A model generated the notes under the pieces. That model did no database searches. It was not told the origin of the DNA and was given only the letters and a program-made list of their open reading frames with translations. Shown piece after piece: positions 6,721 through 62,714 of a stretch of 64,000 bases of DNA (positions are counted from its first letter, which is position 1; every line of letters starts with the position of its first letter). The position numbers and the translations under genes were made by a program. Origin of the DNA: Norana najaformis (Eukaryota > Annelida > Clitellata > Crassiclitellata > Hormogastridae); assembly GCA_964023275.1 (NCBI GenBank), contig OZ029914.1, positions 49,988,530 to 50,052,529 on the forward strand, given 5' to 3'.

Positions 6721-7019
6721 TCACTCAATCACAATATTAGCATAGACTGGGGCTTCCTTTGTTACCCTTTTTGGGAGGACTTCAACATGGCTACTGATGG
6801 CTTCCAGTGAAGTGTAAACAACTGGTTCGTGGACAATAACGGGTCTTTCCGTTAATTTGCTATAAACCTCGGCATCAGCTTCAGCTGGAGCATCTGTTCT
6901 GTCGGGTGTCGTCGATGTTGATGGCGATGTGTTGAATTCTGCCTCGTGAATTGACTCGTAATCTATCGATGGACTTTGAGAATTCTCCTTCGCTACATTG
7001 GCTTTGGTTCTGGATTTCC
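6721..7019 (-). CDS. Gene B cytoplasmic tail exon
   Basis: A single 299-bp terminal exon begins GKSRTKAN after TATTATAG (the glycine codon is completed from the membrane exon) and stops at 6721-6723. Four tyrosine motifs occur in order: IDYESI, EVYSKL, VVYTSL and PVYANI. Gene E has an exon of exactly the same length with all four motifs conserved (IDYDSI, EDYSIL, VVYSSL, PVYVNI). IDYESI and VVYTSL fit the ITIM consensus; YSKL and YTSL are 12 residues apart, at the wide limit of ITAM-like spacing. Confidence 0.85.
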
Positions 7020-10000
7020 CTATAATAGAAACCGTTTGATTCGCCTTCATGTTTATACATACTAATATAAAAACCGAACTAATAACTTTATGGGTACTCT
7101 TCGGAACACATGCGCAGTTTAGCAATACATACAATAACAAGTAGTTCAAAATTGATCCATTAATCAACAATATGTCATATTTTCGCATTTATTGGCTGCT
7201 AGTACAATATATTCAAATATATTGCCTAACAGACGTTGCCTTCGATGTGCCATTAAACATGTTATGAGTTATGAATACATTAATGCATCTGGTTGATTAG
7301 TTAACCTTTCGTATTAAAATTAATATTGCTGTCTCTTAAAAGTATAAATGAGCTATAAATTGATAAATGCAGAAAAAAATGCTCGCTAACTAATCGGCAA
7401 TAACGTATACTCGTAACACAATTTTACAGATTAACGGTTTAACAACAACTAAAATTCTGTACCTGCTTGCGCCGGCAATTGACCTTGTAAAGCACCCTAG
7501 AAGTAGCTGTTTCTTTTCGTGTTGTATAAAATGTCGTTATTAATTACATTACATTTACAAAGCCATTACATTACAAAGCCATTCACTTAGCAACATACTT
7601 TGAAGTGAGCAACAGTTTGCCTACCTTTAGTATGTTTTCGGACCATAACAGGTATGATTAGCAACAAAATGGCGAATATTATTCCCATGAAGAGGGCAAG
7701 GAGCGAAAGCTCGATCCCTGAGCAAATAACAAGAGGTGAGATATGAGTCAATGATAATACACAACCGGTGTGTCATCACAGTTGGGCAAAAAATATTTTA
7801 ATGATGAGCTACATTGAAGGGAATTGCACAATCTGATTACGTTACATTACCGTGAACGATATCTCTAAAAGACCACAATGACATCATATTAGATTCACCT
7901 GCCTACGCTTAAACTCTTTGGTCAAAGAAACACGACGTCGTTTTTAGCGTTCAGTGAGGCTTGCCATTCATTCTACAGGACTGGGACAACTCTCGTGGGT
8001 CACACGGAAGCTGTTCAACCCCATCGGACTTCAGTCCCTTCGCTCCGCTTATTGTGTACATATTCTGGGACTTGGCTTTTGTAAATAACACGAGAAATCT
8101 GCAAATTATCGTGCGTTGGTCCATCTCTCCACAGAATAGACTTTTAGCGAACATACGTACTGTTCCTTCTAAATTGGTTCAAGCTACATAACGACGAACT
8201 TTAGACAGCCGAGTTCACATCTATTTGAGAGATGATTAAAGGCGATAAACGTTCAAGAATATAATTGCATATAAATATACAAGTATACAACCATGCATTC
8301 ATGCATGCATACACGCAAATACGCATACATAAATAAATACATGCAAACATACAGTACATACAGTACATACTGTACATACATAAATAAATACAGTGCATGT
8401 ACATACAATAAATACAGAAATACATACATTCATATATACTGTACGTACTCAGTGTATACATACATACAAGGATATACAGAGACAGACAGACATCCTAAGC
8501 TGTTTATGCCACATTACCTGAGATTGTAATATCGATCGTTGCAGAAGACCGTTTGATCTGTTCAGACACGTGATTTTTAGCAATGCATTCAAAGGTGTAA
8601 CGTTGATCGGTTTCTATTCTAGTGCTATGTAAGGCTAACTGAGGCCCAACTGCAACTGTCTCTTGTGTCTTTACATTTTTCCAGATGTATGAGGGACTTG
8701 GATTTCCATAACCGGTACAGGTTAATACGTCTTCCTGTGAATATTTATTCTTTCGAGGAGTTATTGTAACATTCCTCGCTCCGACTGAAATCGAGGATAA
8801 AATGGATTTAGTTCAAGAATTTATTTCATAACTTTACACAAAGACCTTACACGAAATCGCTATTAATTAGGTCGTATAAGGAAGCACTGAACAAAAACTA
8901 ATAATTTTTGAAAATTTGCAAAATCTTCAATGACTCGAGATAGATGTTCACGTCTCACATTTCAGTGTTCAGTATACAATCATAGCGGTAAGAAGAACAG
9001 AAACGTTTCGTATTGCACAACAAAATTTTTAGTTAACGCAGTTTATCCTTTGATATGACTGTAGCTAAATCAAATTAATGATCAAAATATATTAAAGTCT
9101 TACTTAGCCTATACATTCTTATGTAGTGAAGTTTTTGAAATTAAATACGTAGAAAATAAATTCACATTTAATCTCCTACACCTCTTTCTTTTTCCATAAA
9201 TCACCTGTGCGGAAACGTTTGGCAAGAGTCGTGGACACGGCATCGCTCCAAAGATGGGCACGCCACTGATGGTGATTATGACCATAAGTATGGCGATTTT
9301 TGTTGGTTCCACACACCAGCGTTGTGCTTGACAAATCTGGCCTTGATGCCCAAAATGCTGGAATGATGATGAAGGAAAGTGTCTTCACAATAAGGCAAGT
9401 CAGTGTGACTCGAAGGATGATTATTCTAAATGAATACACTGGCCAACACATAATTTGTTGCCTCAAATGTTAGAACTGTTTCTGGGTATATTTGACCTGC
9501 TGATTCCAGAAAAGGCACCAGTTTTCTCCCAGCATGTCTAGTTTTCGAGATATAGAACATTATGCCATATACCAGTCCTTGCCTCTACTCGCCCATAAAA
9601 CATAAGGCTATAGCTATAATTATGTAGTGCTCAATTTATTATGTGATACACTAATAAACATAATAATACAAATACTTAAAAGAAAATGGTAGTACCTGAA
9701 ACTGTACTTATATGATACCAAACAGAACAAGTTTGTTATAAAAATTTCATGTCATTCGACACCGAAGAAGCTCCTTTTGTACGATTTCCGAGTGTGGCAT
9801 CTGCCGGAACAATCGCGCATAATATTCCAGCAATAGTCTGCCATCATGTGTGCATCCCATCTTCCTTGATATCGATTTTCCATTGTTTTGATGTCTTGGT
9901 GAAATCTTTCACCTTGCTCTTCGCTGAAGTCACCAAGATTCTCTGGAAAGCGATCTAAGTGACTGTGGAGATAATGGACTTTAATGCTCATGTTGCAGCC

Positions 10001-13000
10001 AAGCTTGTTGAAATGAAGAAGCATATCCTCTACTAGTTGTGCATAATTGTCTGCCTTCTTGTTGCCAAGAAAATTTTTAGTTACAAGAACAAAGGAAGAC
10101 CAGGCACAAGATTCGATTTCATTCATTGATGGTATGAAAAGTGGGTCATTCATAAGTTGCCTGATCTGTGGACCATCGAAGATTCCAGCCTTCAATTTTT
10201 CCATTGTAATTCCTGGTAACTTGTGTACTATGTATTCGAAGCATGAACCTTCTTTATTCAAAGCCCTCACAAATTGTTTCATCAGGCCTAGCTTTATATG
10301 TAGTGGTGGCAGTATGATCCTATCTCGTGCCACCAAAGATTCCTTGATTACATTTTGAGCTCCAACCACCATGTCTTTCCTCGAAGGCCAATCTTTTCTT
10401 GTCCAATGTTCATGCTTGGCTCTACTGTCCCAAAGACACAAAAAGCAGGAATACTTTGTGTAGCCACTTTGTTGACCAAGGAGGAAATTTACCATCTTCA
10501 AGTCTACACAAATTACCCATTGATGTTCTTTGTATTTTATCTTTTCCAGTACTAAAGAGATGGCATTGTACTCTTCTTTCATCCTGATGGAGTGACCGAT
10601 TGGAATAGAACCAAATTTGTTGCCGTTATTTAAAAGCACACATTTCAGACTACGTTTTGAACTGTCGATAAAAAGACGCCACTCATCTGGGCTGTAATCC
10701 GACAGACCAATTTTCTTCAATAAGTTGCTGATGTCATTACAGAATACTAGGTTGTTGTCTTCGGTAAAGAATGGCAGCAAATCCTTTTCTCTGTTGCTAT
10801 AAATTGTAATTTTCGTTCCAGGCTGAAGTGCATTCTTTTCCTTTAGTCTGGACGCAAGCAATTCAGAGGACTCTTTGGAAAGATTTAAGTCCCTGATCAG
10901 ATCACTCAACTCTTTTTGGTCAAAACGTTCACTGTGTGAAGTTGATTGGAAATCACTGTCACTGCCCCCACTTTCTTCACTTTCGTCATCTTGTCCGATA
11001 TTGGACATGCAAGTGTCATCGTCTGAGAGCTGAGGTAGTTCGCGAAAAGGTGGAACTGGTACAATATCCGAATGCGGAACAGGTCTCCTGGCTGAAGGTA
11101 TATCAGGGCAAGACAACTTGTGACGATTATTTCGATTGATGCCTATGATATTAACCATACAAAAGTAACAGTCGTCGAAGTGGTTTATCTGTTCCCTCCA
11201 AACCATCGGTACACCAAATTTCAGGCAGCTTCTCTTTCCAGTTGTCCAGTGGCGCAATTGTTCAATACAAGTTTTGCATACTGTATGAGGAGCCCATTGC
11301 TTATCTTGATCTCCAAGTTTGACACCAAAATAACCTACATATGCTCTTTTTACAAACTCAGAAATCGGTTTCCTGTTTGCTTTTAGTGTGTATTCCCCAC
11401 AAATGTAGCAGAATATGTCTGGATGGTTAATGCAGCTCCGTCTGGAAGTAGCCATAACCTTAAGGATGTTCGCATCTGAGGAATTAAATGACTAACCTAA
11501 AAAATAGTAAGAACATGTAGTTATTTAATGCTCACATTCACAGATTGTTCTTGCGACCAACTCTTAATATGCCCTAAGACGACTGCGGCTGCTCTAGCTT
11601 TCAGGAGGCGGTTTATATAGGCTATAAATGCTGACTTCAGCATAATCTATTTACATAGTTCGAAACCATGAAACGCTGTATAAGCACAAATAAATTCTAA
11701 ATGAGGCCATGAATTTGGTGCTGAGTAAGCTGTAGGCTACGGAATAGTTATTTCGTTGAATCAGCAATATCTCAGCACGCGGCAAGATATGCTGATTTTA
11801 CATTATAAGGATGTAGGCATTATATGAATCAGCAAGAATTATAATTAGCCATAAATAAAGCTTATTATGACATTTCAGTTTTGTCAAAGACATCGTTTAA
11901 AGAGTGGACTGGGTTTTCTTTACAAAATCGACGATATCTCAGAAACTAGACCTGATGCACTCAATCCAATGACATTTTCTGAATTATTCTAAATGAATAT
12001 TTCGTTAGGAACTAGATGCTTAGTTGAACGATAAATGCACTTACAATGAACGTTTAATGTGGTATTCCAGTAAAACGAGTAATTTGGTACATTGGTGTAG
12101 TGAAACGTTTCTGGTTTATCACTGAACCCCGTTTTGCAAATAATCGTTGCACCGTTGTCTTCTGTACTGACTTGCCAGATAATAACTGACGACAAATGTT
12201 GCACACAATCAGGCATGTTGGTATTTATAACCAGAGGCGTTTTGTTAAAAGCTTTCCCTCTTATGAACCATTGCATGGATGGAGTCCATTCTCCAGAGTA
12301 ATTGACTGCACATCCGAATGAAACGTAATCGAATTCTTTGATGCTACCGTTTGCTGCAGACATATTCATGCCGCACTGTGGTTCTGATTCTGAACAAAGC
12401 AACAAGTTGATGGTGTTACATGTCTCAAGGTTTGACAACGAGAGTTAAGCCAGTGGAATAAAAGGTCACTGTTTATAGCGTAAAAGTAAAATTCCCTAAA
12501 ATAGAACCAAAACCTTCCAAACCGTAAAATAGTTCACCAGCCCCAGCAATAAAGTAATAAACGTATTGTAGCCTATTTTTTTGATTCGCAGTTGTGTTAG
12601 CCATGTCAGTAAATAGGGATTTCCACTTAGCGGTCGGAAATTTATCGATGATTTATAATTAGTTTTTCGAGAATTTAAAGAAACATAACGTGATAATATC
12701 TTAATTTAGGCGATTAAACACAGGCTAAATAACATCGACTTAGTGTGCTGGTGATTAGCTCTATCAACTCTTTTTTCCTGCAAGATCAGCTGAACGTAAC
12801 CACGTAGAGGATGCGCCAAGCTACTCTATCGTGGACCTTCTCTTTTGAACCGGCTGATCATTGTTTGGTTACCTAGTTTAAGAGGGGCATCCACAACCTC
12901 CAGCCTTTCAATCTGTGGTGCTTTGGATCTGTTTTTGAACCATTTGATCGGCAGACCAAAGGCATTGCCCACTCTACCCAATAGTTCCAGCTCCACAAGC

Positions 13001-13919
13001 AAGTAATTACTAATTTCTATTGCGCCAGTATCTAATGCACAAGCACCAACCGACGTCACATCAAAGCCAGGCCACAATCAGGTCAATATCCAGTAGTTCG
13101 GTCCAATAAGATAGACAACTAAATACTTGTACCATCTCCATCAATAATGAGACAATGAAACTATAATACCTTATCAGTTATGTGATGGCTACATCATCGC
13201 TATAGCTACTTAAAGAAAATTCATTGCAAATATGTGAACTTTACTTTAAAGAAACGCAATGTACGATTTAAAAACACGAGATTACACGGCAATTTACCAA
13301 AGACAATCAAATGGGCGATGTATTGATCAGGCTGTTGTCGTCTCTTGCTAATAACACAGGTGTAGATTCCGGCGTCGTCGAGTCGAGTTGAATTGGAGTA
13401 AAGATCTGCAGAACCACTTTCATCAACATAGATTCCAAAATGTGTAATATTAAGCCTTGCCTCGTCCCTCCAATTTGTCCAAATAGTTGTTGCCTTGGCA
13501 ATGAATGGTCTTTTAATCGTCCACTCGCTGACTTTGTCGCCCTTACATTTCATTTGCATTCTTTGACCGACAGTAACCGCCGCATTCCATGGACGATCAG
13601 GACTCTTAGCACTTCTTGAAGATCCTGGAAATAGGGTAATACTTGGGTGTAGTGGTGTGTATTTGCCAATAAGTTTCCGTATTTAATACAATTATTATAA
13701 CAGAAGAACATATGAAAGATAATGCTCAACTAAAGAATGCTAAAAACAGACCTGTGATATCTACATCATTGTTGTATATATTCAAACACAAAAGTAACCA
13801 TAATGTTATAAAAGTCTTTGTGAATTTGATAGCGGAAACACCCAAATCATGATAAATGTTAATATTACGAACTTACCATATAGAAGAAAGAGTTCTAAAA
13901 GAAGAAAAGACATCCACAT
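6721..13919 (-). CDS. Gene B: three-Ig-domain transmembrane receptor with ITIM-type tail
   Basis: Exons on the minus strand: signal 13919-13877 (MWMSFLLLELFLLYG), V-set 13624-13298, Ig2 12389-12045, Ig3 8784-8518, transmembrane 7717-7625, tail 7019-6721. All introns are phase 1 with GT-AG. The V domain has the B-strand Cys in MQMKCKG, a Trp in SEWTIK and DDAGIYTCV. Ig2 has FGCAVNYSG and a core Trp; Ig3 has LTCTGYGNP and FECIAKN. The transmembrane core is FAILLLIIPV. The tail has IDYESI and VVYTSL (ITIM fits) plus YSKL and YANI. It is likely a cell-surface recognition receptor signalling through SH2 proteins (inferred). The ectodomain is almost identical to gene C, whereas the tail matches gene E, so the gene looks chimeric. 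Intron 3 holds a 2.5 kb insertion. Confidence 0.85.
7625..7717 (-). CDS. Gene B transmembrane exon
   Basis: A 93-bp phase 1-1 exon with a hydrophobic run from LSLLALFMG to LIIPVMV, then basic RKHTK as cytoplasmic anchor. C (28596-28688) and D (50258-50350) are equal in length and similar in sequence, unlike E, whose membrane exon is different. The B/E-like switch therefore lies in the intron between 7625 and 7019. Confidence 0.8.
8265..8475. repeat. CATA/TATG tetranucleotide microsatellite
   Basis: An imperfect (CATA)n tract sits just after the Ig3 exon in the Ig3-to-membrane intron of gene B. Genes C (27735-28065) and D (49212-49690) have the same tract at the same place. The apparent ORFs across it are repeat translations. 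Confidence 0.9.
8518..8784 (-). CDS. Gene B third Ig exon
   Basis: A 267-bp phase 1-1 exon coding an I-set-like domain: Cys in LTCTGYGNP, Trp in YIWKN, and Cys in FECIAKNH, ending ATIDITIS. About 8 of 267 bases differ from gene C by eye. Confidence 0.85.
9437..11982 (-). mobile_element. 2.5 kb insertion with 17-bp target duplication and one intact ORF
   Basis: The direct repeat ATTATTCTAAATGAATA occurs at 9420-9436 and 11983-11999. The matching intron of gene C (near 26789-26810) has one copy and no insert, so this is a clean, comparatively recent insertion into intron 3 of gene B. There is no poly(A) or poly(T) at either edge. An 18-bp imperfect inverted repeat (16 of 18) lies at 9536-9553 and 11934-11951, and the right-end CAGAAAA also appears inverted near 9507, so a terminal repeat may start about 70 bases inside the left edge. 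It carries a single intronless 567-codon ORF. The length of the duplication is more like retroposition, the inverted repeats more like a DNA transposon; I cannot assign a class. Confidence 0.7.
9752..11455 (-). CDS. Uncharacterised Cys-rich protein of the inserted element, 567 aa
   Basis: A long intact intronless ORF, the largest in the window. Residues 16-63 hold paired CxxC motifs (CYIC at 16-19, CKTC at 60-63), reminiscent of a ZAD-type or treble-clef zinc module. A second possible zinc site is C96/C99/H112/C116. An acidic, serine-rich stretch lies at about 150-175. The central and C-terminal parts have conserved-looking blocks: VICVDLKMVNFLLGQQ, CFLCLWDSR with a CxxC, ILPPLHIKLGLMK and SEEQGERFHQDIK. 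An acidic residue in the VDLK strand, an interposed CxxC and a late EE/ER pair could fit an RNase H-like transposase core, but I do not recognise the family with certainty. The same protein type appears, as far as I recall, as multicopy unannotated genes in other invertebrates, which fits a mobile element. Confidence 0.75.
   Translation of the reverse strand: MATSRRSCINHPDIFCYICGEYTLKANRKPISEFVKRAYVGYFGVKLGDQDKQWAPHTVCKTCIEQLRHWTTGKRSCLKFGVPMVWREQINHFDDCYFCMVNIIGINRNNRHKLSCPDIPSARRPVPHSDIVPVPPFRELPQLSDDDTCMSNIGQDDESEESGGSDSDFQSTSHSERFDQKELSDLIRDLNLSKESSELLASRLKEKNALQPGTKITIYSNREKDLLPFFTEDNNLVFCNDISNLLKKIGLSDYSPDEWRLFIDSSKRSLKCVLLNNGNKFGSIPIGHSIRMKEEYNAISLVLEKIKYKEHQWVICVDLKMVNFLLGQQSGYTKYSCFLCLWDSRAKHEHWTRKDWPSRKDMVVGAQNVIKESLVARDRIILPPLHIKLGLMKQFVRALNKEGSCFEYIVHKLPGITMEKLKAGIFDGPQIRQLMNDPLFIPSMNEIESCAWSSFVLVTKNFLGNKKADNYAQLVEDMLLHFNKLGCNMSIKVHYLHSHLDRFPENLGDFSEEQGERFHQDIKTMENRYQGRWDAHMMADYCWNIMRDCSGRCHTRKSYKRSFFGVE
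12045..12389 (-). CDS. Gene B second Ig exon
   Basis: A 345-bp phase 1-1 exon beginning ESEPQCGMNMS. It has a Cys in FGCAVNYSG, a Trp in SMQWFIRG, and an F-strand Cys in TIICKTG without the usual Tyr before it. Several N-x-S/T sites are present. The protein is identical to gene C's second domain (26399-26743). Confidence 0.85.
12800..13080. repeat. Dispersed repeat in V-Ig2 intron (LINE-like relic)
   Basis: A segment containing the CACGATAGAGTAG...TACGTGGTTACGTTCAGCTGA motif. It is shared with C (25710-26000) and D (47170-47480), and related copies lie upstream of C (24350-24540) and D (45790-46010). An 83-codon ORF over it is not preserved in D, so I treat it as a transposon relic, not a gene. 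Confidence 0.6.
13298..13624 (-). CDS. Gene B V-set exon
   Basis: A 327-bp phase 1-1 exon encoding one V-set Ig domain with canonical B-strand Cys, C-strand Trp and the DDAGIYTCV F-strand. Against gene C about 25 bases differ, clustered in the first 15 residues and around PFIAKATTI (B) versus PFTDTRATI (C). Most changes alter the residue, while flanking introns and the Ig2 exon are almost unchanged. This is probably the ligand-binding domain. Confidence 0.88.
13877..13919 (-). CDS. Gene B signal-peptide exon
   Basis: A 43-bp first exon, MWMSFLLLELFLLYG, ending in phase 1 at a GTAAGT donor. Genes C, D and F have first exons of identical length and similar hydrophobic sequence. Confidence 0.8.
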
Positions 13920-14021
13920 AATTCCCTTTTGTTTTGTCTATTGAATTCAAAAAACCAAATTTGCATTCAAAATATAAAAGTTCGCATTCCGACAAGTGTT
14001 GCGAAAGTAACTGGCATAGAT

Positions 14022-14052
14022 AGGATTTTTCAGTCTATATGTTAGTTTAGTG
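14022..14052 (-). promoter_or_regulatory. Conserved upstream block of gene B
   Basis: Read on the minus strand, this is the motif CACTAAACTAACATATAG plus a following ACTGAAAAA, about 130 bases before the start codon. The same block stands 130-146 bases before the starts of C, D and F. It is a candidate core promoter or transcription start region; no TATA box is assigned. Confidence 0.4.
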
Positions 14053-14356
14053 AGAGGGACTAAAGCGACTTTGTGCAACCGAAACCGTTAAATCGCCTAC
14101 TAGACTCATCATGGGTTTGTAACATGGCAAAGTGATAATGCAAATCATATGACATGTAATTATGCTGATGAAGAATAGAGAAACAAATGTCATTTTAAAC
14201 GCAATATCAGTTTTGGGCCTTATCGTTTGAGACAAATATGGCTCAATTTTCGAAAAGTTGCAACGCTGACATGATGAAATCTATTTTGTCACTCAAGTAT
14301 TTCTGAACACTTGTTTTGATGGTGATTAAGCTAGACTATTCCTAACTGACCAAATA

Positions 14357-20489: not shown

Positions 20490-20739
20490 TGAACTATGAG
20501 ACGACTCAGTGGAGCATTACCCCACTCGGTCAAAAGACGTCATCGGTTATATACAACGGTGGCGCAGTCTCAAACAACTTCAAATCCAAATTCCATGTAA
20601 AAATCCACAGGGTCTGGTCAGAGTAATCTGACAGCCAAGACCATCGACATAACAGATGTTGAAATCTACGTATGTGTTATACATAACAGAGCAAAAATCC
20701 CGGATCGAACAAATCCAGTTGCAGTAACAGCAGAATTAG
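20490..20739 (+). pseudogene. V-set Ig exon relic, gene-E type
   Basis: No intact ORF covers it, but two frames joined by one frameshift near 20608 read a V-set domain: ETTQWSITPLGQKTSS then SNLTAKTIDITDVEIYVCV and VTAEL before a GTGAAT donor. Gene E has ETTQWSF..GQKTSW and AELVVLG in the same order. The B-strand Cys region upstream is lost. It is a remnant of an E-like receptor on the plus strand; no second or third Ig exon was found after it. Confidence 0.7.
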
Positions 20740-24765: not shown

Positions 24766-24796
24766 CACACTAAACTAACATATAGGCTGAAAAAGC
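24766..24796 (+). promoter_or_regulatory. Conserved upstream block of gene C
   Basis: CACTAAACTAACATATAGG then CTGAAAAA, about 135 bases before the ATG at 24903. It is shared with B, D and F, within a longer conserved 5' flank that starts near 24545. Confidence 0.4.
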
Positions 24797-24902: not shown

Positions 24903-27900
24903 ATGTGGATATCCTTTACTCTTTTTCAACTATTTTTTCTATATGGTGAGTTCGTTATTTGCAAATTTCATCGTAATTAGGGTCGTTCTGCTATCAAATT
25001 TATTATGTCTGTTTTTGTATTTTAATATATACAAAATTTATGTTGATATTCCCGTCTGCTCTTAGCAGAAAAATATCTTTGATATCATTCGTATTAAAAT
25101 AATTATAATAAATCAGATAAAGTTCAGTCGAATTCACATTCCTTCACTCAAATATTGTCCTATTTCCAGGATCTTCAGGAAGTGTTCAGTTTCATGATCG
25201 TCCATGGAATACGGCTCTTACTGTCGGTCAAAAAATGCAAATGAAATGTAAGGGCGAAAAAGTCAGCGAGTGGACGATTAAAAGACCATTCACTGACACG
25301 AGAGCAACGATTTGGACAAATTGGACTGACGAGGCAAGGCTAAACAATACACATTTTGGAATCTATGTTGATGAAAGTGGTTCTGCAGATCTTTACTCCA
25401 ATTCAACTCAACTCGACGACGCCGGAATCTACACCTGTGTTATTGGCAAGAGACGACAACAGCCTGATCAATACATCGCCCATTTGATTGTCTTTGGTAA
25501 ATTATTGTGTAATCTCGTGTTTTTAAATCGTACATTGCGTTTCTTTAAAGTTCACATAATTGCAATGAATTTTCTTTAAGTAGCTATAGCGATGATGTAG
25601 CCATCACATAACTGGTAAGGTATTATAGTTTCGTTGTCTCATTATTGAAGGAGATGGTACAAGTATTTAGTTGTCTATCTTATTGGACCGAACTACTGGA
25701 TATTGACCTGATTGTGGCCTGGCTTTGATGTGACGTCGGTTGATGCTTGTGCATTAGATACTGGCGCAATAGAAATTAGTAATTACTTGCTTGTGGAGCT
25801 GGAACTATTGGGTAGAGTGGGCAATGCCTTTGGTCTGCAGATCAAATGGTTCAAAAACAGATCCAAAGCACCACAGATTGAAAGGCTGGAGGTTGTGGAT
25901 GCCCCTCTTAAACTAGGTAACCAAACAATGATCAGCCGGTTCAAAAGAGAAGGTCCACGATAGAGTAGCTTGGCGCATCTTCTACGTGGTTACGTTCAGC
26001 TGATCTTGCAGGAAAAAAGAGTTGATAGAGCTAATCACCAGCACACTAAGTCGATGTTATTTAGCCTGTGTTTAATCACCTAAATTAAGATATTATCACG
26101 TTATGTTTCTTTAAATTCTCGAAAAACTAATTATAAATCATCGATAAATTTCCGACCGCTAAGTGGAAATCCCTATTTACTGACATGGCTAACACAACTG
26201 CGAATCAAAAAATAGGCTACAATACGTTTATTACTTTATTGCTGGGGCTGGTGAACTATTTTACGGTTTGGAAGGTTTTGGTTCTATTTTAGGGAATTTT
26301 ACTTTTACGCTATAAACAGTGACCTTTTATTCCACTGGCTTAACTCTCGTTGTCAAACCTTGAGACATGTAACACCATCAACTTGTTGCTTTGTTCAGAA
26401 TCAGAACCACAGTGCGGCATGAATATGTCTGCAGCAAACGGTAGCATCAAAGAATTCGATTACGTTTCATTCGGATGTGCAGTCAATTACTCTGGAGAAT
26501 GGACTCCATCCATGCAATGGTTCATAAGAGGGAAAGCTTTTAACAAAACGCCTCTGGTTATAAATACCAACATGCCTGATTGTGTGCAACATTTGTCGTC
26601 AGTTATTATCTGGCAAGTCAGTACAGAAGACAACGGTGCAACGATTATTTGCAAAACGGGGTTCAGTGATAAACCAGAAACGTTTCACTACACCAATGTA
26701 CCAAATTACTCGTTTTACTGGAATACCACATTAAACGTTCATTGTAAGTGCATTTATCGTTCAACTAAGCATCTAGTTCCTAAAGAAATATTCATTTAGA
26801 ATAATCATTCTTCGAGTCACACTGACTTGCCTTATTGTGAAGACACTTTCCTTCATCATCATTCCAGCATTTTGGGCATCAAGGCCAGATTTGTCAAGCA
26901 CAACGCTGGTGTGTGGAACCAACACAAATCGCCATACTTATGGTCATAATCACCATCAGTGGCGTGCCCATCTTTGGAGCGATGCCGTGTCCACGACTCT
27001 TGCCAAACGTTTCCGCACAGGAGATTTATGGAAAAAGAAAGAGGTGTAGGAGATTAAATGTGAATTTATTTTCTACGTATTTAATTTAAAAAACTTCACT
27101 ACATAAGAATTTATAGGCTAAGTAAGACTTTAATATATTTTTATCATTAATTTGATTTAGCTACAGTCATATCAAGGGATAAACTGCGTTAACTAAAAAT
27201 TTTGTTGTGGAATACGAAACATTTCTGTTCTTCTTACCGCTATGATTGTATACTGAACACTGAAATATGAGACGTGAACATCTATCTCGAGTCATTGAAG
27301 ATTTGGCAAATTTTCAAAAATTATTAGTTTTTGTTCAGTGCTTCCTTATACGATCTAATTATTAGCGATTTCGTGTAAGGTCTTTGTGTATTGTTATGAA
27401 ATAAATCCTTGAACTAAATCCATTTTATCCTCGATTTCAGTCGGAGCGAGGAATGTTACAATAACTCCTCGAAAGAATAAATATTCACAAGAAGACGTAT
27501 TAACCTGTACCGGTTATGGAAATCCAAGTCCCTCATACATCTGGAAAAATGTAAAGACACAAGAGACTGTTGCAGTTGGGCCTCAGTTAGCCTTAAATAA
27601 GGCTAGAATAGAAACCGATCAACGTTACACCTTTGAATGCGTTGCTAAAAATCACGTGTCTGAACAGATCAAACAGTCTTCTGCAACGATCGATATTACA
27701 ATCTCAGGTAATGTGGCATACACAGCTTAGGATGTGTGCTTGTATATATGTACGTATATATGTACGTATGCATGCATTTATTTATGTTAATATGTATACA
27801 TGTATGAATATATGCATGTATATACATATATATGTTTATAATGTAAGTGTGCCCAGATATGTACGTTTGTACAGTATGTATGTATTTATGTATGTACTGT

Positions 27901-30900
27901 ATGTATGCATGTATGTATGCATATATGTATGTAAGTCTTTGTGTATGCATGCGTGTATGTACGCATGAATGCATACATAGATGTAATTATGTATGTGCTA
28001 TACTTATGTGTATATATATGTATGCATTGTATTTATGTATGTATGTATGCATATAATTATGTTTTTGAGCGTTTATTGCCTTTAAGGACTTCTTAAACCG
28101 TTGTTAACTTGTCTATATACGGTGCGTTTTGACATAGGAAGAGAATGTAACTTGATCCTATTTAGAAGGAACAATACTTATGTTCCCAGAAGACTGTTCA
28201 ATGGAAGTATGGACTAACACACGATAGTGTGCGGATTTCTCATGTTATTCGTGAAAGTCATGGTTCAGAAAATCTCCGCAGTTAGCCGAGCTTCAATGGG
28301 TTTAACAGCTTGCTCAGGACCAACGAGTCCGGCCCCAATTCTGAGGAATGAATGATAGACTACACTAGAAGCAACAGAGATCATCATGTATGAGACCACA
28401 GAGCACCATGTATGCATAAAAATCTATTATTTCATTGTAGTCTATTGAAGCCATAGTTCACGGTAATGTAACATAAAATCATTGTCAAAAATCTCTTCAA
28501 CGAAGTTCATTATTAAACTGTTACTAGTCCAACCGTCATGACACACCGGTTGTGTGCTACAGTTGACTCATATCTTACCCCTTGTTATTTTTCAGGCGTC
28601 GATCTTTCGCTCATTACTCTCTTGATGGGAATAACGTTCACCATTTTGTTGCTAATTGTAATTGTTATGGGCAGAGAACGTATAAAAGGTAGGCAAACAA
28701 TTGTTTACTTTTAGGTATGTTGCTAAGTGAATGACTATGTAATGTAATAGCTTTGTAATTGTTATGTAGTGAACTGACGATAATTGATACAACATGCTAA
28801 GTAGCGTGCTCCTTCTGAGGTGCCTTACAATGTCGATTTCCAGCGTAAATACTAAAAGTTACGTAGCCTAGTAAGTATTATTTCATTTGCTTTTATAAAG
28901 GTGAAACTGTGGAACTGATTTATGAGTACTATTACCGATTAGTTAGAAAGAAATTCTGTTGCATTTCTCAATGTATAATTCGGTTTTGCTTTTAGAGGAC
29001 AAGAGTAGTATCCATCGATCATCGGCCTTTCCATTTCTCTCAGCTTAAACACAGCCCATCCTAACAGCTCTTGTCTCCTTTTCTCTCAGGTCTTCTGGCA
29101 AACCGGACTTGGTTCGTGACATGGCATCTTTGGATAACAACATTGACTTGAAGCAGTTCCTTGAATAAACTAGGGCCTGCGCTTACCTTTTAAGTAGCGC
29201 TTTATAAAATAGGAATTTTCGAATAAAATTACGATTTATATTATAAGGAAGATTAATCGAGCAATTGCATTAATAGAATCAGAGCTCGTAACATGTTTAA
29301 CGGCACTCATCAGGCAAATTCTGTAAGATAACATATTTGAGTGTAATATCGGTTAACAATAGCGAAGAATTGACAGATTGACAGTGATTAATGGATAATT
29401 TTTAACTACTGGTTGTAGGATGCATTACTAATACTGCGCATGTTTTCCAACGAGGACCCGACACCGAGCCGGACATCTTACCGAACGCCGGTGAAAATCG
29501 TAATGGTCTGAATATGCATAGCAATATCACAGTATAAAACCTAACCGAGTTGCTCCACTTTCATTTGTATAATCGACATACTACATGCTCGTTCTATGTA
29601 TGGTAAGCAATCTTCACTCATTTACCTTTGTGACCTAACTTAACGTATTTGGGTCTGACTGTTCTTCTGTCCACGTTCACCTTTAAAAGCCGGTCTGTGT
29701 GCGACTCCATACTTATTAGTGATGGACTGATGGTGTATTCTATTGTTTTCAGGTGGAGCTTATGACTACGTGTTGGAACCTTATGGACAATATGCGATGC
29801 CAGCAGAAGTCGGGGCTTTTGGTGAGCTATAATACTGTCAGCACAGTGTTTGTATTAAAATGTTAAACATCACTATTTAACATTTAATTCCACAGCATCG
29901 TTATAATGAAGATTTTCAATTGATGGCCCACTTAAGGGTATCTGAAATTCCTGTAAACTCTAGAGGATCGATCCAATACAATTGAGAAACTGCCCAAGAA
30001 AGAGATGGGCGCTTAAACCGCTACAGAGACATAAACGACCCAGTTGAAAATAGAGATGGATGAAGCGAATCCCTATAAAATGTGAAGCCAATTTGATTTC
30101 AGGTACAAGGTCACAGTGAAGCGAATTAAACTAACATGTTATTCACGCATGGCTTTACAATGCATTAGTTGAAGATATGATTTTAATAAATTGAGCAATA
30201 ATCCTGAATATTTATACAATCATCTGTAGTTAATTGGTATTCTTTGCTAAAGCCTGTATTATGATGTCAGATTATATAGACAAATGACCTGCAAAGGTAG
30301 ATGTCACTTTCTTTCTTAACCTTCTTCATACAAATGTAAATATGGGGTGTTTGGAATACAGTGATCGACATACATATATGGACATTGGTAAAGTATGCTA
30401 TTTGTTAAATTCAGGCTTATGGATATTCAGACTAACTTTTGGAAACATCGAGACATTGACTTCAGAAATCAATGCAAACTATGATATGGCCAAATAGTTA
30501 TGATTAATACCCTACAGATGTGGGGTAGCATGCAAATCAGTTGGTCTAAATACTATTGATATGACCAAATGTTACCGATCGTAAAAGTTTACTTTGTCAA
30601 TCATAAAATTAAAATGACTCTTTGCATTTTACAGTTACAGTCTACATATTTTATGAATTTGCAAGCCACACTAATGTAATCCGTTACTACAAAATTACTT
30701 CAAAAGTTTAACAAATTTTCCAGGAAACGCTCCTAGACGAAGAGGTGAAAACGAAATACAATGCCTCGCCGCTGAAGACGGTAGGTTGACAGCAAAACAC
30801 TGAAACAAAACAAAAGTGTTTTGTCATCTGCTATATTTTTACTACAATTTTGTAAATCCATTTAATTGGCCCCGTATGTTTCCATCGCTTCTTGCAAAAG

Positions 30901-33900
30901 TTTTAAAATCTATCCGAAATTGTAAGCAAGAGAGCGAATATTGCAGTTCGCATGTTTTAGCACCAAAGAAAATTTTTTTGTAGTCCACAAAATTAGTTAA
31001 GGAGTTATGGTAGAAGGTCAATCCGAGATTTCTATCCACAAAAAGCTGCAACTTCGTTAGATTTATCAGCATACTGCACAATATTTTTAGATTTTTATTT
31101 TGAAAGTTTTTACGTTTCTGGTAGTGAAGAATCACGTAATACGTAACATACGTAACATCGACTTCATAAACTACTTTAACGTATATGTTTATATAATTTA
31201 AGAGGCTGTCGCGATTATTTTAGACCATCGAGCGGAATCGGAATTCCCTGTGTATGCTGAGGTCAACAAACCGTGCAAATGTCAGTATGTCGTTTTAGAG
31301 TAGGAATGCCTGCATTATTTTTCTGTGATTATTAACAAGTGTCAATTAACTGAACTCCCTGCACGCGTATACTGGGTCATTTCTATAGCACCTTTAGGAT
31401 CCTTTACTGCCTGAGAGCACAGTATTCGTTATGATTCATACAGCAAACCAATCTGTTTGATCGGATTTGTAGACCTAACCTTAAGTGCACTTTTATAAAG
31501 CGTCTCTTCGAGATAATTCATCAGAAATGTTTCCCACAAGACCACGATCAAATAGAACTGTATTCAACTGCTGGCGAGATGGTTTCATGTCAGTTTCTTG
31601 GGCGCAAGAGTTCTCTTCCTGTTCCGACATCTAGTGAATGCTTCACAAAAATCGAAACATTGGTTTTCTATTCTTCTCGGATACATCGTTCTTTATCTCT
31701 GTCAGTTTTGACTTTTGCATGACGACTAACTTTGCCACGTTAAGGCATTTAGGCAATTTCTGCTTTTCCTATAAATTCAACACCTAAAAGTTGAGAGAAC
31801 CATCCCGAATTGTGGATTCCCTCTTATTTTGCTTATTAGCAACCGCTGTATCACGCAACTGCGCATTTAGTATGTCAATATAAACTGTAGTTCTATATAA
31901 TGTCTTTTTGAAAATAATTAGGTCAGGTTAGGTTGACGTCAATGGCCTTGACAATCATAAGATGTCGTAAAACTCTAGATTCTATCGCTAAAGTCTAATT
32001 GTCGTTACTGATAGAAAAATTGACTAATAAGTAACGGTATAAACGTTTTCGCACAAAATTCATTGTTAGAGTGTACTGTCGTTGTTTGCTGAAGATAGGA
32101 ATATATTCTCTTTTGAAGCGGTGAAATACTAAATTTGTATTTGCTGAAATCAAAACTTTTCAGACAAAAGAACAGATGCACCCGCTTCTTGTCAAGCGCA
32201 GACACTTTCCACCTACTCCGAAGCCAGGTTGAATTCCTATAGTCAGAGAAACCAGAACTTAGGCTACGGTAAGTAAACAACTTGAAACAGATGAGTCATA
32301 GGTCATATGTGCAATTATTTTTGATTATTTCAGACATTATTAAGTTCGGTTTTACTTGTAATTGTTGCATGAAATCTTTGCAGATTACAAAATTAAATCA
32401 GCCATTTTGTGTCCATTGCAAACACTTTCCTGTCGATTCCAAACTGATGAAAAACGAATTTGGCAAGTATTCCAGTTGCTTATCCTTTTATCTGTGACGT
32501 ATGGGTAACCGATTTTTATTCTAAAACTGCTTAGAACTAGATCTTGCTTTAAGATGCTTGAAATCAACTGTATACTCTTTAAAGGTAAGCAATTATTGCA
32601 AATAATTGAACCTGTAGTTGAATGCATTGCAGTTATCTGCTGTATGCTGTTTTCTTAAGTAGCTGCATCCGAATGCAAAGCTGATATTTCAGAAGACACA
32701 ACAATGAAGCCGTGTTCGACACAAATGGTAAGATAAGATTACATTACCACAAATCTTTAAATAAATTTCAGTATCGTAGCATGTTATACAGGAAGACTAT
32801 TCCAGATTGCTGGTGCAGATTTGCTGATTGCCTCTGATGTCAAGGGAGAGCGAAAATGTTTTGTGTTGCTGGTCGCACAGATCTGGATGGTGGGTAGCGC
32901 TGTAAGGATGATGACAGGTAAGCAGATTGATTGTCCGAGAGAGAGTCTTAGGCCCTAATTTTAAGGAGAGCTATCTTGTAAGTGATTCTTGAGCTGACAG
33001 GCAGCCAACGTAGATTTGCGAGTACAGGAGTGACGTGGTCAAACCTTCGGGTTCCTGCCACCAAACGGGCAAACGAGTTCTGGACACGTTACAGTTTGGC
33101 GATGTTAGACTTTGAAGTGCCGTTCAGTGGCGAATAACAGTAGTCGAGTTTTGCTGTGACTACACTACAAGCGACTGTCTTTATAAGCTCCGGTGGCAAG
33201 CACGATCGAACATTTGTACAACTATGCATATATACATCGTGTTTGTTCTAAGTCTAAAAGTGAAAAGCATGTATCCATGCCCACAGTTGAACGTAGGGGA
33301 AGTTGTTACTTTCCGGGTTAGCCCGATAATAGAGGAACTCCAAGGTCGTGGACACGGGGCCAGTGCATCACAGGAACTGTCGTTTATTTCCCAGCTTGCG
33401 CCAGCATCAAATTCTTCTGCTCGGTGACAGTCACTTGTACGCAATTTGCCCGGGGTCGACATACGAAGTCCGCTCAGCAGGGCAAACCCACAACGTTTAA
33501 TTGTAGACCCAACGCGTCAATCAAATAGACTACATTTCACAATTAGATGGGCACAGAGAAGTTTCATTAGTCGAGTCTATCAATGCATTTGACGGTTTGG
33601 CCTTTGATGATGAGGCGTTTTATTTTGCGGTTTATTCTTTGCAGTTCTAAGTGAATAAAACAGTCGTCAAAACATTTTATATCTTTGTCAATAACCAGTT
33701 GTGTGAACTGTTGTGCCTTTGGTTTTTAAGAGCATAGGACTTGACGGCACAATCTATGCGGAACTGAAGACAGATGGAGGTATTCGTGAGTCGCAGACCT
33801 CTGGATCACGGTTTCAAGATCCATTGTTCAACAAATCGAATTACGCCTTCATTGACCACACAGCTGAACCTGCGCCACCTCCTCCACCTCCGCAGAGAGA

Positions 33901-36110: not shown

Positions 36111-37059
36111 GAAATGAGACTCAATAACTGCTTACCGGTGTTATAGGTACATGATCGTTATACAGCTACTTAAAGACATTTCCTGGCAAATATGTGAATA
36201 TTATTTTAAAGAAACGCAATATACGATTTAAAAACATGAGATTACACGACAATTTACCAAAGACAATCAATTGGGCGGTGAAAAGATCAGGCTGTTGTAG
36301 AGGCTTGCTAATAACACAGATGTAGATTCCGGCGTCATCAAGTTTAGTTGAATTGGAGTAAAGATCTGCAGAACCACTTTCGTCAACATAGAAGCCAAAA
36401 TGTGTATTATTTAGCCTTGCCTCATCCCTCCAATTTGTCCAAATCGTTGTTCCTTTGTCACTGAATGGTCTTTTAATTGTCCATTCGCTGACTTTGTCGC
36501 CCTTACATTTCATTTGCATTTTTTGACCAACAATTACAGCCGTATTCAATGGATGATCAGGAAACAAAACACTTCCTGAAGATCCTGGAAATAGAATAGT
36601 ACTTGACTTAAGGGATGTGATTTCGACTGAACTCTTTCTGATTTGTTATAATTAACATGACATGAAAACGTATCGAAAATCATGCTCTTCGTAAGAATAT
36701 CAAAAGAAGACACGGTATATCTGGAGAACTATGTCTTGACCTTGTTTAATTTTTGGAAAACAAAATTAATAAATTGAAATTAAAAATTATTCAGTGTCCT
36801 GATAATCTAAGATGGAATGTTTTGCTCCTTGAGTCTGATTTGTTTGGTACTGTCTTCAATGATATCCCGCGTGTCACATACTTCTGTCTCTTCTTAATTA
36901 CAGTGTGTCCCTAAATCCTCTCCAATATACTTCATTCCTGTATCACTCATTTTCTCTTGTTCTGATGTTTTCTCCCATATGATATCACATTTGGCTAACT
37001 TGTCTTTTGCTGAAGGCTGTTTTCCATGATCATGTTTTAAATCAGCCTTAGTTATACCG

Positions 37060-46330: not shown

Positions 46331-49300
46331 ATGCGGATGTTATTTGTTCTTTTTCAACTATTCTTTCTCTATGGTAAGTTTGTCATTTGCAACAATCATT
46401 ATCGTTAGGATGTTCAGGCTATAAAATTCACAATGACGTTTACATCATTATGGCTGATTTTGTATATGAATATATACACCAGTGATGTAGATATGCCAAG
46501 TCTGCTCTTAGCATTCTTAAGAAGAGCATTATCTTTGATAAGATTTTTATTATAATAATTATGATAAATCAGAAAAAGGCGAGTCGAATTCACACCCATG
46601 CACTCAAGTATTGTCCTATTTTCAGGATCTTCCGGAAGTGTTAAGTTTCCTGAGCGTCCATTGAATACCGCTGTTACTGTCGGTCAAAGAATGCAAATGA
46701 AATGTAAGGGCGACAAAGTCACCGAGTGGTCGATTAAAAGACCATTCAGTGACAAGGGAATAACGATTTGGACAAATTGGAGGGACGAGGCAAGGTTAAA
46801 TGATACACATTTTGGCGTCTATGTTGATGAAAGTGGATCTGTAGAGCTTTACTCAAACTCAACTCAACTTGATGATGCCGGAATGTACATCTGTGTTATT
46901 AGCAAGGAACGACAACAGCCTAATCGATTCAGCGCCCATTTGATTGTTTTTGGTAAATTATCGTGTAATCTCAAGTTTTTAAATCGTACATTGCGTTTCT
47001 TTGACATAATATCCACATTTTTGAATGAATTTTCTATAAGGAGCTGTAGCTAATATGTAGCCATCACATAACTGGTAAGATTTTATGGTTTCGTTGTCTC
47101 AATGTTGGTGGAGATAGAACAAATATTTCTAGATTATCTCATTGGAGCTACCTTCTGGATAATGACCTGATTGTGGCTAGGTTTTGATGCGCCATCGGTG
47201 GCTGCTTCTACATTAGGCACCGGCATAATAGAAATTAGTAATTACTTACTTACTTATGGACAGGTATTAATGGGCAAAATGGTCAATGCCTTTGGTCTGC
47301 AGATCAAGTGATACAAGAAACAGATCCAGATCACCACGGATTTTGCAGAGTGGACGTTTTGGATGCCATTCTTTAAGTAGATAACCAAACATAGGAGAAG
47401 GTTCACGATAGAGTAACTTGGAACATCTTCTACGTGGTTACGTTCAGCTGATCTTGCAGGAGAAAGAGCTGAGAGAGCTCTTCACTAAAGCCTCAAATCG
47501 TGGTTGTTTATCCTGTGTTTTATGACCTAAATAAAGATATTGTCACGTTATGTTTCTATAAATTATCAGAAAATTAATAATACATCATCGATACATTCCC
47601 AATGCACCACTTACTGACATGGCTGACGCAATTGTGAGGTAAACAAATGAAGCTACAAAACGTTTATTACTTTGTTGTGGGGGTAGGTGCCCAATTTTAC
47701 AGTACGGTAGGTTTGGATTTTATTATTATCGAATTTTATATTTACGATTTAAACAGTGGCCTTTTATGCCAATGTCTTAACCCTCTTTTTGAGACTCTGA
47801 TGAATGTCACAATGTTAACTTTGTTGCTTTGTTCAGAATCAGAACCACAGTGCAGCTTAAATATGTCTGCAGCAAACGGTAGCATCAAAGAGTTCGATTA
47901 CGTTTCATTCGGCTGTGCAGTGAATTACTCTGGAGACTGGACACCATCCATGCAATGCATTGGAGGAATTGCTTTCAACAACACGCCTGTTGTTACGAAA
48001 ACCAACATATCTCATTATTTGCAACATCTATCGTCAGTTATTATTTGGCAAGTCAGCGCAGAAGACAATGATGCAACGATTACTTGCAAAACATGGTTCA
48101 GTGATACACCAAAGAAAGTCGACTACACCAGTGCCACCAATATACCAAACAACTCTTTTATTTGGAATACCACAGTAAACGTTCATTGTAAGTGTATTTA
48201 TCGTTCGATTAAGCATCTAGCTTCTAACTAAATATTCATTTGGAATAATCATGCTTCGAATCACACTGACTTGGATTATTGTGAAGACACTTTCATTCAG
48301 CATCGTTCCAACCTTTTTGAGCATCAATGCCAGGTTAATGAAGCAAGATGCTGGTGTATGGCACCAAAACAAATCGCCAAAATTATCGTCATGATCGCCA
48401 TAGTGGCGTGCCAATCTCTGGAGCGTTGCCGTTTCCACGACTCTTGCCAACCGTCCAGGAATAGGTGATTTATGATACAGAAAGAAGTTTAGACCAGTAA
48501 ATGTGAATTTGCATTCTTCTTAATTAATGAAATTTCTTCACCATATAGGAATTTTTGCACTAAATAAGACTTGAAGACGGCAATATACTTTTATTAATAA
48601 TTAGTTTTAGCTAGTGTAGTTTCAAAGGATAAACGGTGTTTATTAAATTTTTTTTTATTTTTATTTTTGGCTCCTTAGTTTTAAAATAGGAAACGGTCCT
48701 GATCTTGTAAACGCTATAATTATATGCTGTACACTGAAATGTCAAACGTAAACATTTGTCTTGAGTCATTGAAAGATTTTGGCAAATATTCAATAATTGT
48801 ACAAATTTTAATTTGATTCTGTGGTTGTTTATCCGACTTAATTAATAACGATTTCCATATTAGATCGTTATGTATTGTTGTTAAAACAAATCCTTAAACT
48901 AAAGCTGTTTTGTATTCGATTTCAGTCGGGGTGAGAAATGTTAAAATAACCCCTCGAAAGAATAAATATTCACAGGAAGACGTTCTATCGTGTACCGCTG
49001 ATGGAAATCCAATTCCTGTATATAAATGGAGAAATGCAATGATACAAGAGACAGTCGGAGTTGGGCCTCAGTTAGCCTTAAGTGAGGCTAGAATAGAAGC
49101 CAATCAATTGTGCACCATTGAATGCATTGCTGAAAATCACGTGGCTGAACAGATCGGACAGTCTAATGCGACGATCGATATTATAATCTCAGGTAATATG
49201 GCATGAACAGCTTAGGATGTGTGGATGTATGTATGTATGCACGTATAAATATATGTATGTATGCATGCATTAATTTCTTATGTATGTATACATATATTGA

Positions 49301-59893: not shown

Positions 59894-62714
59894 CTATAAT
59901 ACAAACCGTTTGATTCGCTTTAATGTTTAGTAGCATTTAATATCAATGTGAAAATAAACCTATTTACTCTATGAATAGGGTTTGTTGAAGTTAAGGATGA
60001 AAATTAAGTACAAAGAAAAGACTTTTGATATGCAATATTTTTGCTTGCTAAAGTACCAATTTATGAAAACTTGAACTAAATACGCGAGGAATTGCAATCC
60101 TGCAAACACAGGCCAATCTTGAATTGAGAGCAAGCTAAGCATCCAGACAAACAAAAGAGGCATTTGAAGTACATTACTTGAGCTGAGTTTCTTTTGGACG
60201 CATCTCACGATGAATACTGCTAACAGCGTGCAGAAAATGCCAACACCAGCAGCGACGATGTAACCAAATGGCAATTGCCAAGTTCCTGAAATAAAGCGGA
60301 ATTAAACGCAATAGAACATTTGTTAGACTGATCCTGATCATTTTTACAACGCTTATGTTTATCATATCCACCATCTCCACCATTACCATTCCAACTACAG
60401 GTACTTGCATACGTTTTTCTAAAGCGACTGTATGACCTCAACCTTGCCATGACAACAGCCGCAGTACCACACGAATACCACAAGAACTCCCACAATTAGA
60501 CCGTGTAACACCACCACAACCATTGCACACGTAAACCATACCAACATCAAGGCGATCAGAAAAACCGAACCCACTAGAGTAAGCAATTTAATTTGTAAAA
60601 ATAGTTCACTAAAACTGAAGGAATTGTAATGCTGCCAGACTTTGTAATTACCTTGGATTGTAATATCAATCGTTGCAGATGACAGTTTGATTTGATTTTT
60701 AGCAATGCATTCAATGGTGTAACGTTGATCGGCTTCCATTCTAGCCTTATTTAAGGCGACCTGAGACCCAACTGCAAAAGTCCCTTGTGTCTTTACATTT
60801 TTCCAGATGTATGAGGGACTTGGATTGCCATAACTGGTACATGTGAGAACGTCTTCCTGTCGATATGTGTCCATCTGAGGCGTTATTCTAACATTCCTCG
60901 GTCCAACTGAAATGCAGGTAAAACGCAAAATGAAAGATCAATTTTTAGAACAACGAAAACAATATTGGGGTTCTATACATTTAAAGAAATTACATTTTAT
61001 TTCAACGTTTTCATGTGTCGTTTTAAGCAAATAAACACAAAGAAGTGTTTTGCACTAACCAGATGAACGTTATTATTAATTATAAACTTCTACTGCGGCG
61101 ATGGCCCACCAAAACCAAATCATAATCAACTTTATACCCAGAGGATAAGTATGTATCAATTACGTTTCAGTTATTCGATCACTTACAGTGTACGTTAAAT
61201 GTAGTGTTCCAATAAAAGATGTAGTTCGGCACATTGGTAGCATTGGTGTAGTAGACCTTTTTTGATGTATCACTGAAGATTGTTTTGCAAGTTATCAGAA
61301 TACCGTTGTATTCTGCACCGACTTGTAAAATAATTACGGACGATAAATGTTGCACAACACGAGAAATACTGGCATTCGTTACAATAGATGTTTCGTTTAA
61401 AGTATTTGTTTCTTTTGACCAGTGCATGGATGGAATCCAGTGTCCCGAGTAGTTCACAGCGCAGCGCAATTCAACGTAATCGAATTCTTCGATGATGCCG
61501 TTTGTTTCAGATATATTGGTGTGGCATTGTGGCTCTGACTCTGCACGCAGTAACATTCTGCAGTTATTGATTCACAGTTCACTATTGCTATTCCTACAAT
61601 TATTCTTATTAAACATACGTCCTTATTGCTGACACTGCCAATACATGAATAGAAGAAATGAAGGTATAGCCACTCTGAGAATATTACGTTTTCACTCTCA
61701 CGACAGTCATTTATATTTTCGCTATAACTGTCATAAAGTAGAGTACAGTCAGACATCCAAATCCCAGGGAATATCGAGAGACTTTATTAGAATATAGACT
61801 ACTTTAAGGTGTTTAAAAGCCGTCATGGCAACTCTTGTATTAAGTCAGAAAATTCACATGCAATTAAGGTGATATCACTCAACTCGCTCATACATAGTGC
61901 TGAGTTCCAGAAAAAAAATTAATTGAAATAAAAGATTCAAATAATCCATTTTGCGTAAGTATAATATTCATTTACAAAATAACATGAAAGAAATTGCTTT
62001 ATTGTTAACACATATTAACATGGAAGAACATGCCTTTTGTTTGCTTATTGAAATGCGTTGCATTAATATTCAAAACATATCAAAATTATATAGAATGTCA
62101 AAAGCATTTAATTTGTAGAGACTGTTAAGATTAATTTACCTAATACGACTAATTCTGCCGTTGCTGCTATGGTGTTTGATCGATACTGCGTTGCTCTGAT
62201 AAATTCAACACATTTGTAGATTCCAGCATCTCTCAATACGACGTTCTTGGCTACCAGATCATGCTGACCAATCCCTGTAGATAAATCTACACTGAATCTA
62301 GGTGCGAAGTCGGTTGACACAGCCTCACCGTTGTATACAAGCCATGACGTCTTTTGACCGAACGGGATAAAGCTCCATTGCGTCGTCTCATTTCGACTTG
62401 TGCCACAATCCATCCTCATAGATTGCCCAGCTACTACAACCGTGTTTAATGGAGTCTTACTGAAGGCGGATTCAACTACAAGCAAAACGAATTCGTTATT
62501 ACATTGTAGTAATGAATAAAACAGTAATTAGATTTACTTAAAATGCAATATAGTCATTTAAATAGTCTTTGTTTTCGAGATCAGCTTCATTTCGTGTGCG
62601 GCATTGCTACATAGAAGAACATTGTTTGAAATAGTAATTCATTTTACCTGTTAATATTTTCAGCATAACCTGACACATAACGAAAACTAGTTTTCTTCTG
62701 TGCCGATTAAACAT
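59595..62714 (-). CDS. Gene E: diverged three-Ig-domain transmembrane receptor with ITIM-type tail
   Basis: Minus-strand exons: signal 62714-62648 (MFNRHRRKLVFVMCQVMLKI, then LTG), V-set 62475-62140, Ig2 61540-61187, Ig3 60906-60652, transmembrane 60285-60178, tail 59893-59595. Phase 1 GT-AG throughout. The V domain has MRMDCG, TQWSF and RDAGIYKCV, clearly different from the B/C/D/F type. Ig2 starts ESEPQCHTN and keeps SMHW and ITCKT; Ig3 has LTCTSYGNP and IECIAKN. The membrane core is GYIVAAGVGIFCTLLAVFIV with basic KK after. The tail holds IDYDSI and VVYSSL (ITIM fits), YSIL and YVNI, the same set as gene B. A second hydrophobic frame at 60419-60573 lies between Ig3 and this membrane exon. 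It is probably an inhibitory-type recognition receptor; function inferred. Confidence 0.83.
60419..60573 (-). other. Second hydrophobic frame in gene E (alternative or relic membrane exon)
   Basis: After CTCTAG in phase 1 it reads VGSVFLIALMLVWFTCAMVV, then HGLIVGVLVVFVWYCGCC, and stops at 60419 after EVIQSL. It has no good donor in a phase that fits the next exon. Used as a last exon, it would give a receptor with almost no cytoplasmic tail; otherwise it is an exon relic. Confidence 0.45.
62140..62475 (-). CDS. Gene E V-set exon
   Basis: A 336-bp phase 1-1 exon: V-set with Cys, Trp and RDAGIYKCV. Close only to the relic at 20490-20739 in this window (shared ETTQWS, GQKTS, TAEL), so E represents a second V lineage. 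Confidence 0.85.

Follow-up and report, generated by a model that had tools for sequence, protein, structure and literature searches.

Gene models at the locus

The window, which is the whole stretch of 64,000 nucleotides analysed here (C2:49988530-50052529, C2 being a contig of the assembly), contains two predicted receptor genes, B and C, which lie head to head on the minus and plus strands. Their exons and the other V exons of the window are as follows.

13298..13624, minus strand: V exon of B, 327 bases, phase 1-1, with AG/GT sites, an open frame, C26, W34 and C89
25170..25496, plus strand: V exon of C, with AG/GT sites, an open frame, C26, W34 and C89
13877..13919, minus strand: leader exon of B, coding part
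24903..24945, plus strand: leader exon of C, coding part
12045..12389, minus strand: Ig2 exon of B, Ig-like by the C/W/C motif only
26399..26743, plus strand: Ig2 exon of C
8518..8784, minus strand: Ig3 exon of B
27441..27707, plus strand: Ig3 exon of C
7625..7717, minus strand: transmembrane (TM) exon of B, of the type of the plus-strand genes, its end set at G/GTAGG (seven of seven copies)
6721..7061, minus strand: tail exon of B, of the type of the minus-strand genes, with IDYESI, EVYSKL, VVYTSL and PVYANI; start set by phase
28596..28688, plus strand: TM exon of C, its end set at G/GTAGG as for B
29419..29505, plus strand: tail exon 1 of C
29753..29821, plus strand: tail exon 2 of C (AYDYVLEPYGQYAMPAE)
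33725..33868, plus strand: likely further tail exon of C, with GTIYAEL and SNYAFI; boundaries approximate, five copies in the cluster
36259..36582, minus strand: V exon D, without adjacent Ig2 or Ig3 matches
46628..46951, plus strand: V exon of gene E
62138..62473, minus strand: V exon of gene F, of a second V type, 34-35% identical

In B, C and the two genes of a further pair, g10 and g11, the exons for leader, V, Ig2 and Ig3 carry AG/GT sites and agree in phase. All five V exons of the window retain the V-set core (C26, W34, D83, G85, Y87 and C89, that is, the Cys-Trp-Cys and DxGxYxC residues) without variation. Pfam V-set scores were 15.6 for B, 17.5 for C and 26.1 for the V of F, the gathering cut-off being 26, and a PDB profile search with V gave 131 matches with E no higher than 0.1, the best among the 60 listed being contactin-1 (2.2e-13). 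For Ig2 of B, Pfam yielded no Ig domain with E of 1 or less. The solo V exon D is probably a gene remnant. No Rfam match was found in the 64-kb window.

Cluster architecture and tail types

A V search of the assembly gave at least 86 matches (150 of 158 candidates were scored), 80 on C2 and 6 on C4. Eleven of them, 69-100% identical, fall within 49.97-50.12 Mb of C2. At ~0.2-1.65 Mb, C2 also has a large array of V exons that are less similar (30-54% identity). In the 162 kb around the window, the 11 V exons and F form six head-to-head pairs (g1/g2, B/C, D/E, F/g7, g8/g9 and g10/g11), and the predicted exons follow the order leader, V, Ig2, Ig3, TM and a tail with tyrosine motifs. The second V type was observed at 62138-62473, at 20498-20738 and at five further places in the 162-kb cluster; it stands upstream of six V exons in the same orientation, where it may be an alternative or an additional V exon, and is the sole V in F. 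Outside the window, g8 has two Ig3 matches (window-relative 85262-85408 and 85995-86264), one of which is partial and contains a stop.

The plus-strand genes g2, C, E, g7, g9 and g11 share one TM and tail type. The minus-strand genes g1, F, g8 and g10 have the other TM and a tail with IDYESI- and VVYTSL-like motifs and two further YxxL/I motifs. B is a hybrid (6721-7717, minus strand) in which a plus-type TM exon is joined to a minus-type tail, the splice phase matching as read. The minus tail is present in five copies in the assembly, all within the cluster, and its pooled pN/pS over these copies is 1.01, which counts against a strong role of this tail; the values were 1.07 for the TM core and 0.45-0.49 for the plus tail exons. 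The model that the plus genes end after the TM exon was dropped, because the donor G/GTAGG is present in seven of seven copies and later tail exons follow. The assignment of the two tail types as inhibitory versus activating was also dropped, because the later exons of the plus genes carry YxxL/I motifs as well. Both tail types contain YxxL/I, and K or R is absent from the transmembrane core of C.

Matched ectodomains with unlike tails were found in B/C (92%) and g10/g11 (95%), and the other head-to-head pairs fall short of such ectodomain identity. When F was left out, long alignments above 90% were obtained for two gene pairs only, again B/C and g10/g11, both of which are head-to-head neighbours.

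Divergence between B and C

Because B and C are encoded on opposite strands (minus and plus, respectively), B was reverse-complemented before comparison; a direct plus-versus-plus comparison of the two V intervals, which gave 235 differences in 327 bases, was discarded for this reason. The sequence-only reading had counted about 25 differences in V, few of them silent, next to an identical Ig2 and an Ig3 with about 8 differences. These counts were reproduced: 25 of the 327 V bases differ, spread over 22 codons (4 silent and 18 replacement), Ig2 shows no difference in 405 bases across the open frame, and Ig3 differs at 8 of 276. The same reading had both introns beside V differing rarely, which is correct for intron 2 (11 of 847 bases and 6 gap columns) but not for intron 1 (62 of 221 bases and 30 gap columns). 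The stretch with the leader exon (B14029-13875) differs at 22 of 154 bases and has 4 gap columns. The peak that had been described as limited to the V domain lies in a diverged block that also takes in the leader exon and intron 1. Comparison of intron with exon divergence had been named beforehand as a check that could refute the claimed peak, and on the 5' side of V intron 1 is more diverged than V itself. The difference of intron 1 from intron 2 and Ig2 does not fit a single duplication date with neutral introns.

Within V, the differences are lopsided, with 23 in the 188-190 bases of codons 1-62 and 2 in the remaining 139. The following tracts were delimited.

B 13447..14034 (C 24786-25347): diverged block with leader exon, intron 1 and V codons 1 to ~59, by two-state segmentation and segment counts
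B 14035..14216 (C 24604-24785): homogenised tract 1, 2 of 182 columns differing, by segmentation and nearest-gene scan
B 12005..13446 (C 25348-26783): homogenised tract 2, with the 3' part of V, intron 2 and Ig2; 13 mismatches and 6 gap columns
B 8476..9436 (C 26789-~27740): continuation of tract 2 through Ig3, 96-99% per 150-base window, ends approximate

Beyond B14217 the B-C divergence returns (36 of 144). Intron 3 of B carries an insertion of ~2.5 kb (window ~9437-11982), which is absent from C, and near-identity resumes past it. This insertion has a 579-residue ORF with a zf-AD match below cut-off and is transposon-like. The segmentation is not clean inside V, which counts against the mosaic; it left one low-divergence run (B13576-13502) inside the diverged block.

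A three-way profile per 100 columns gave comparable B-C, B-E and C-E differences inside the block (10-34%); outside it, on both sides, B-C was 0-4%, and B-E and C-E were 11-25%. In V codons 1-62, B differs from nine other paralogs at 20-30 of 181-190 bases, and C differs from nine other paralogs at 17-30 bases. The V codons 1-62 of B and C are thus at the paralog baseline, indicating that the pair is not unusually distant there but unusually close elsewhere, and that the two genes are mosaics, as read from a single assembled genome. The baseline is not a plain one, since V codons 1-62 differ by 12% and intron 1 by 28%, which indicates constraint on V. When B was scanned against 11 other gene regions, its nearest gene changed along the sequence: g1/D-like above 14.4 kb, C from 14.25 to 14.0, and g2 from 14.0 to 13.65 (leader and intron 1). 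The first part of V had no clear nearest gene, C followed at 92-100% from ~13.5 to 8.5 kb, the TM exon was mixed, and the tail exon was 98% like g10 over 140 bases.

Probable origin of the V peak by incomplete gene conversion

We consider it probable that the V peak between B and C is an unconverted remnant between homogenised tracts, left by recombination of inverted copies, most likely gene conversion. Recombination between B and C would have made two tracts near-identical: one, which is short, lies upstream of the leader exon, and the other begins inside V and extends through intron 2, Ig2 and Ig3. The leader exon, intron 1 and the first ~59 V codons would have escaped homogenisation and kept their ordinary paralog divergence, and the V peak would be the exonic end of this spared block as viewed against the converted flank. 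From this arrangement we infer that the mechanism was gene conversion and that the block was spared because the tracts happened to end there, not through selection. The edge of a homogenised tract can in this way mimic a peak of selection.

Selection may instead have disfavoured conversion of V while other parts were copied, as proposed for CEACAM32, an alternative that we regard as possible but doubtful. Half of V does lie in the spared block, and a second head-to-head pair, located outside the window ~100 kb away, is in line with this alternative.

116828-117169, window-relative, outside the window: V of g10
126303-126644, window-relative, outside the window: V of g11

These two genes are 95% identical over 4.4 kb, with 144 differences in 4187 aligned bases, and the differences are densest in the FG loop, with 12 within 40 bases, a density matched in none of 5000 permutations. 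No second copy of either FG loop was found within 3 mismatches anywhere in the assembly. The FG loop of g10/g11 is a true V-limited peak, the pattern that had been claimed for B/C. In B/C, however, leader and intron make up most of the spared block, and homogenisation has reached the 3' part of V with its FG loop. The other head-to-head pairs are silent on this point: no long tract was found in g1/g2, D/E or g8/g9, and F/g7 were compared in Ig2 and Ig3 only.

Tests of selection on V

One of the two causes proposed at the outset was diversifying selection, under which the V exons of this pair would have diverged more quickly than the sequence around them since the duplication; for B and C we judge it unlikely. 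Besides the excess of replacement codons, it would account for codons 41-45, all five of which are replaced between B and C, as would also be expected from selection, and the family-level site models described below speak for it as well. By the Nei-Gojobori method, B-C is the sole pair with dN/dS above 1 among the 55 pairs of 11 V exons (median 0.52); Ig2 pairs have a median of 0.36 with none above 1, and Ig3 pairs a median of 0.55 with 3 of 55 above 1. The B-C value is 1.23, but it is based on 4.5 silent and 20.5 replacement changes and is not significant (one-sided p=0.40). Moreover, intron 1 is more diverged than V, the pair is at the paralog baseline in the diverged part, and the FG loop is identical in B and C, the nearest change being S/G at codon 92, just before the loop.

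Across the family, the same idea is plausible for V, and the B-C pair is uninformative on this question. Purpose-written site models were applied to 108 of the 113 columns of the V alignment, the FG insert columns being omitted. For the 11 V exons, the likelihood-ratio statistic was 28.5 for M7-M8 and 25.6 for M1a-M2a, with ~5% of sites at dN/dS near 5 and alignment codons 32, 44, 64, 94 and 105 in the positive class. Ig2 gave nothing, and Ig3 gave a weaker class near 2.1 (LRT 11.1). After removal of near-duplicates the V signal had p values of 0.0013 or 0.00015; when each half of V was given its own tree, they were 0.077 and 0.015. Under star trees the signal of V and Ig3 rose strongly but that of Ig2 did not (p=0.17), and recombination among copies can inflate a codon-model signal.

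With loops named and delimited by sequence motif and general V-set topology, the mean pairwise amino-acid difference was highest in the CC' stretch (codons 40-45; 0.49) and 0.11-0.31 elsewhere without insert columns. The FG stretch gave 0.30 without and 0.49 with the insert columns, the latter value being due to codon 94 (0.89) and to an insert present in 4 of the 11 genes. The view that FG is as variable as CC' was accordingly dropped. A structure model of V from the five window sequences was poor (mean pLDDT 53). Judging from the alignments, selection probably diversifies some V codons in the family as a whole, most of all those of the CC' loop; this signal and the g10/g11 loop are worth following.

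A tentative scheme, to which we give rather little credence, would join these observations: in inverted pairs, arm-to-arm conversion may match the scaffold domains while selection keeps the CC' and FG loops different. If true, each pair would combine a common framework with recognition loops particular to each member, attached to either of the two types of tail.

Search for a V donor

Conversion from another V donor had also been suggested for the B-C contrast. The assembly (608,420,607 bases, 17 contigs) was searched with the B and C islands; best candidates only were scored and common words were skipped. The B island had 16 matches, the best non-self one being g2 at 85%, and C was by score the ninth of its ten close non-self matches. 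The C island had 12 matches, the best non-self one at 83% over most of its length and 88% over part. No recent donor of the 5' half of V is visible among these scored candidates. That a donor elsewhere overwrote the 5' half of V in B or C is thus very unlikely, although mosaicism is common here, as in the g10-like part of the B tail exon. The higher divergence of intron 1, the equality with the paralog baseline, the nonsignificant dN/dS and the lack of a close donor together mean that the B-C contrast is no evidence for selection or for a donor.

The least probable explanation is an assembly error. Two inverted copies separated by 12 kb are difficult to assemble, and an Ig2 without differences is extreme, but identity fades outward from Ig2 (from 0% to 1-4% difference), the ~2.5-kb insertion of B is absent from C, and g10/g11 are homogenised too.

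Comparison with known systems

Among open-licence papers, CEACAM32 comes closest to the present cluster as an example of conversion that leaves out some Ig exons. Excerpts of the CEACAM study describe spared Ig exons and a converted leader exon and introns for ruminant CEACAM1 paralogs and CEACAM32, together with an average N-domain dN/dS of 0.65 and candidate selected codons near the CFG face (PMC7042247). In both systems IgSF genes lie in a cluster, and gene conversion affects some of their parts but not others. In the present cluster, however, Ig2 and Ig3 appear converted, and the spared parts are the leader, intron 1 and half of V; no homology is claimed. Siglec-11 and Siglec-16, in excerpts of their description, likewise have very similar ectodomains through conversion and different signalling parts, but their signalling is opposite, whereas here YxxL/I motifs occur in both tail types (PMC5701461).

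The Alr family of Hydractinia is presented in excerpts of two papers as 41 linked genes with V-set and I-set domains, including candidates with ITIM and ITAM-type motifs (PMC11999971, PMC12065747). Hydractinia is a cnidarian, and the likeness lies in these described features (PMC11999971, PMC12065747); no Alr-named entry was present among the matches listed (30 rows of one search and 60 of the 131 PDB profile matches). Botryllus FcoR, as excerpted, resembles the present genes in its V-type Ig domain, TM segment, tail with ITIM, hemITAM or core tyrosine motifs and paired genes (PMC12065747). FcoR is described with a sushi domain between the V and C2-type Ig domains, and it pairs with fester genes (PMC12065747), whereas both pair members belong to one family here. 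Oyster CgIgIT2 is a molluscan IgSF receptor with a tyrosine-based motif, but it has five Ig domains, and the excerpt does not mention a head-to-head cluster (PMC11999971). No description of the present cluster was found in the open-licence literature searched. It is a compact invertebrate cluster in which receptors with V domains and ITIM-like tails are arranged as head-to-head pairs, and it suits a test of conversion against loop diversification with population data.

Nuclear copies of mitochondrial genes

As a separate observation, nuclear copies of mitochondrial COX1 were seen at C15:412069-412726 and 570464-571281, with a COX2-like stretch after the first. Read in the invertebrate code, the C15 COX1 copy gives NMRWSGLRLERIPLF, with one stop in the translated stretch. 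An AGG-AGA pair in this copy falls at two positions that we take to be glycines, which counts against the invertebrate-code reading. GH6 and molluscan haemocyanin gave no match in the assembly, although no control gene was recovered by these searches either; the source is an animal, perhaps a lophotrochozoan. The COX1 and COX2-like translations presumably resemble lophotrochozoan sequences.
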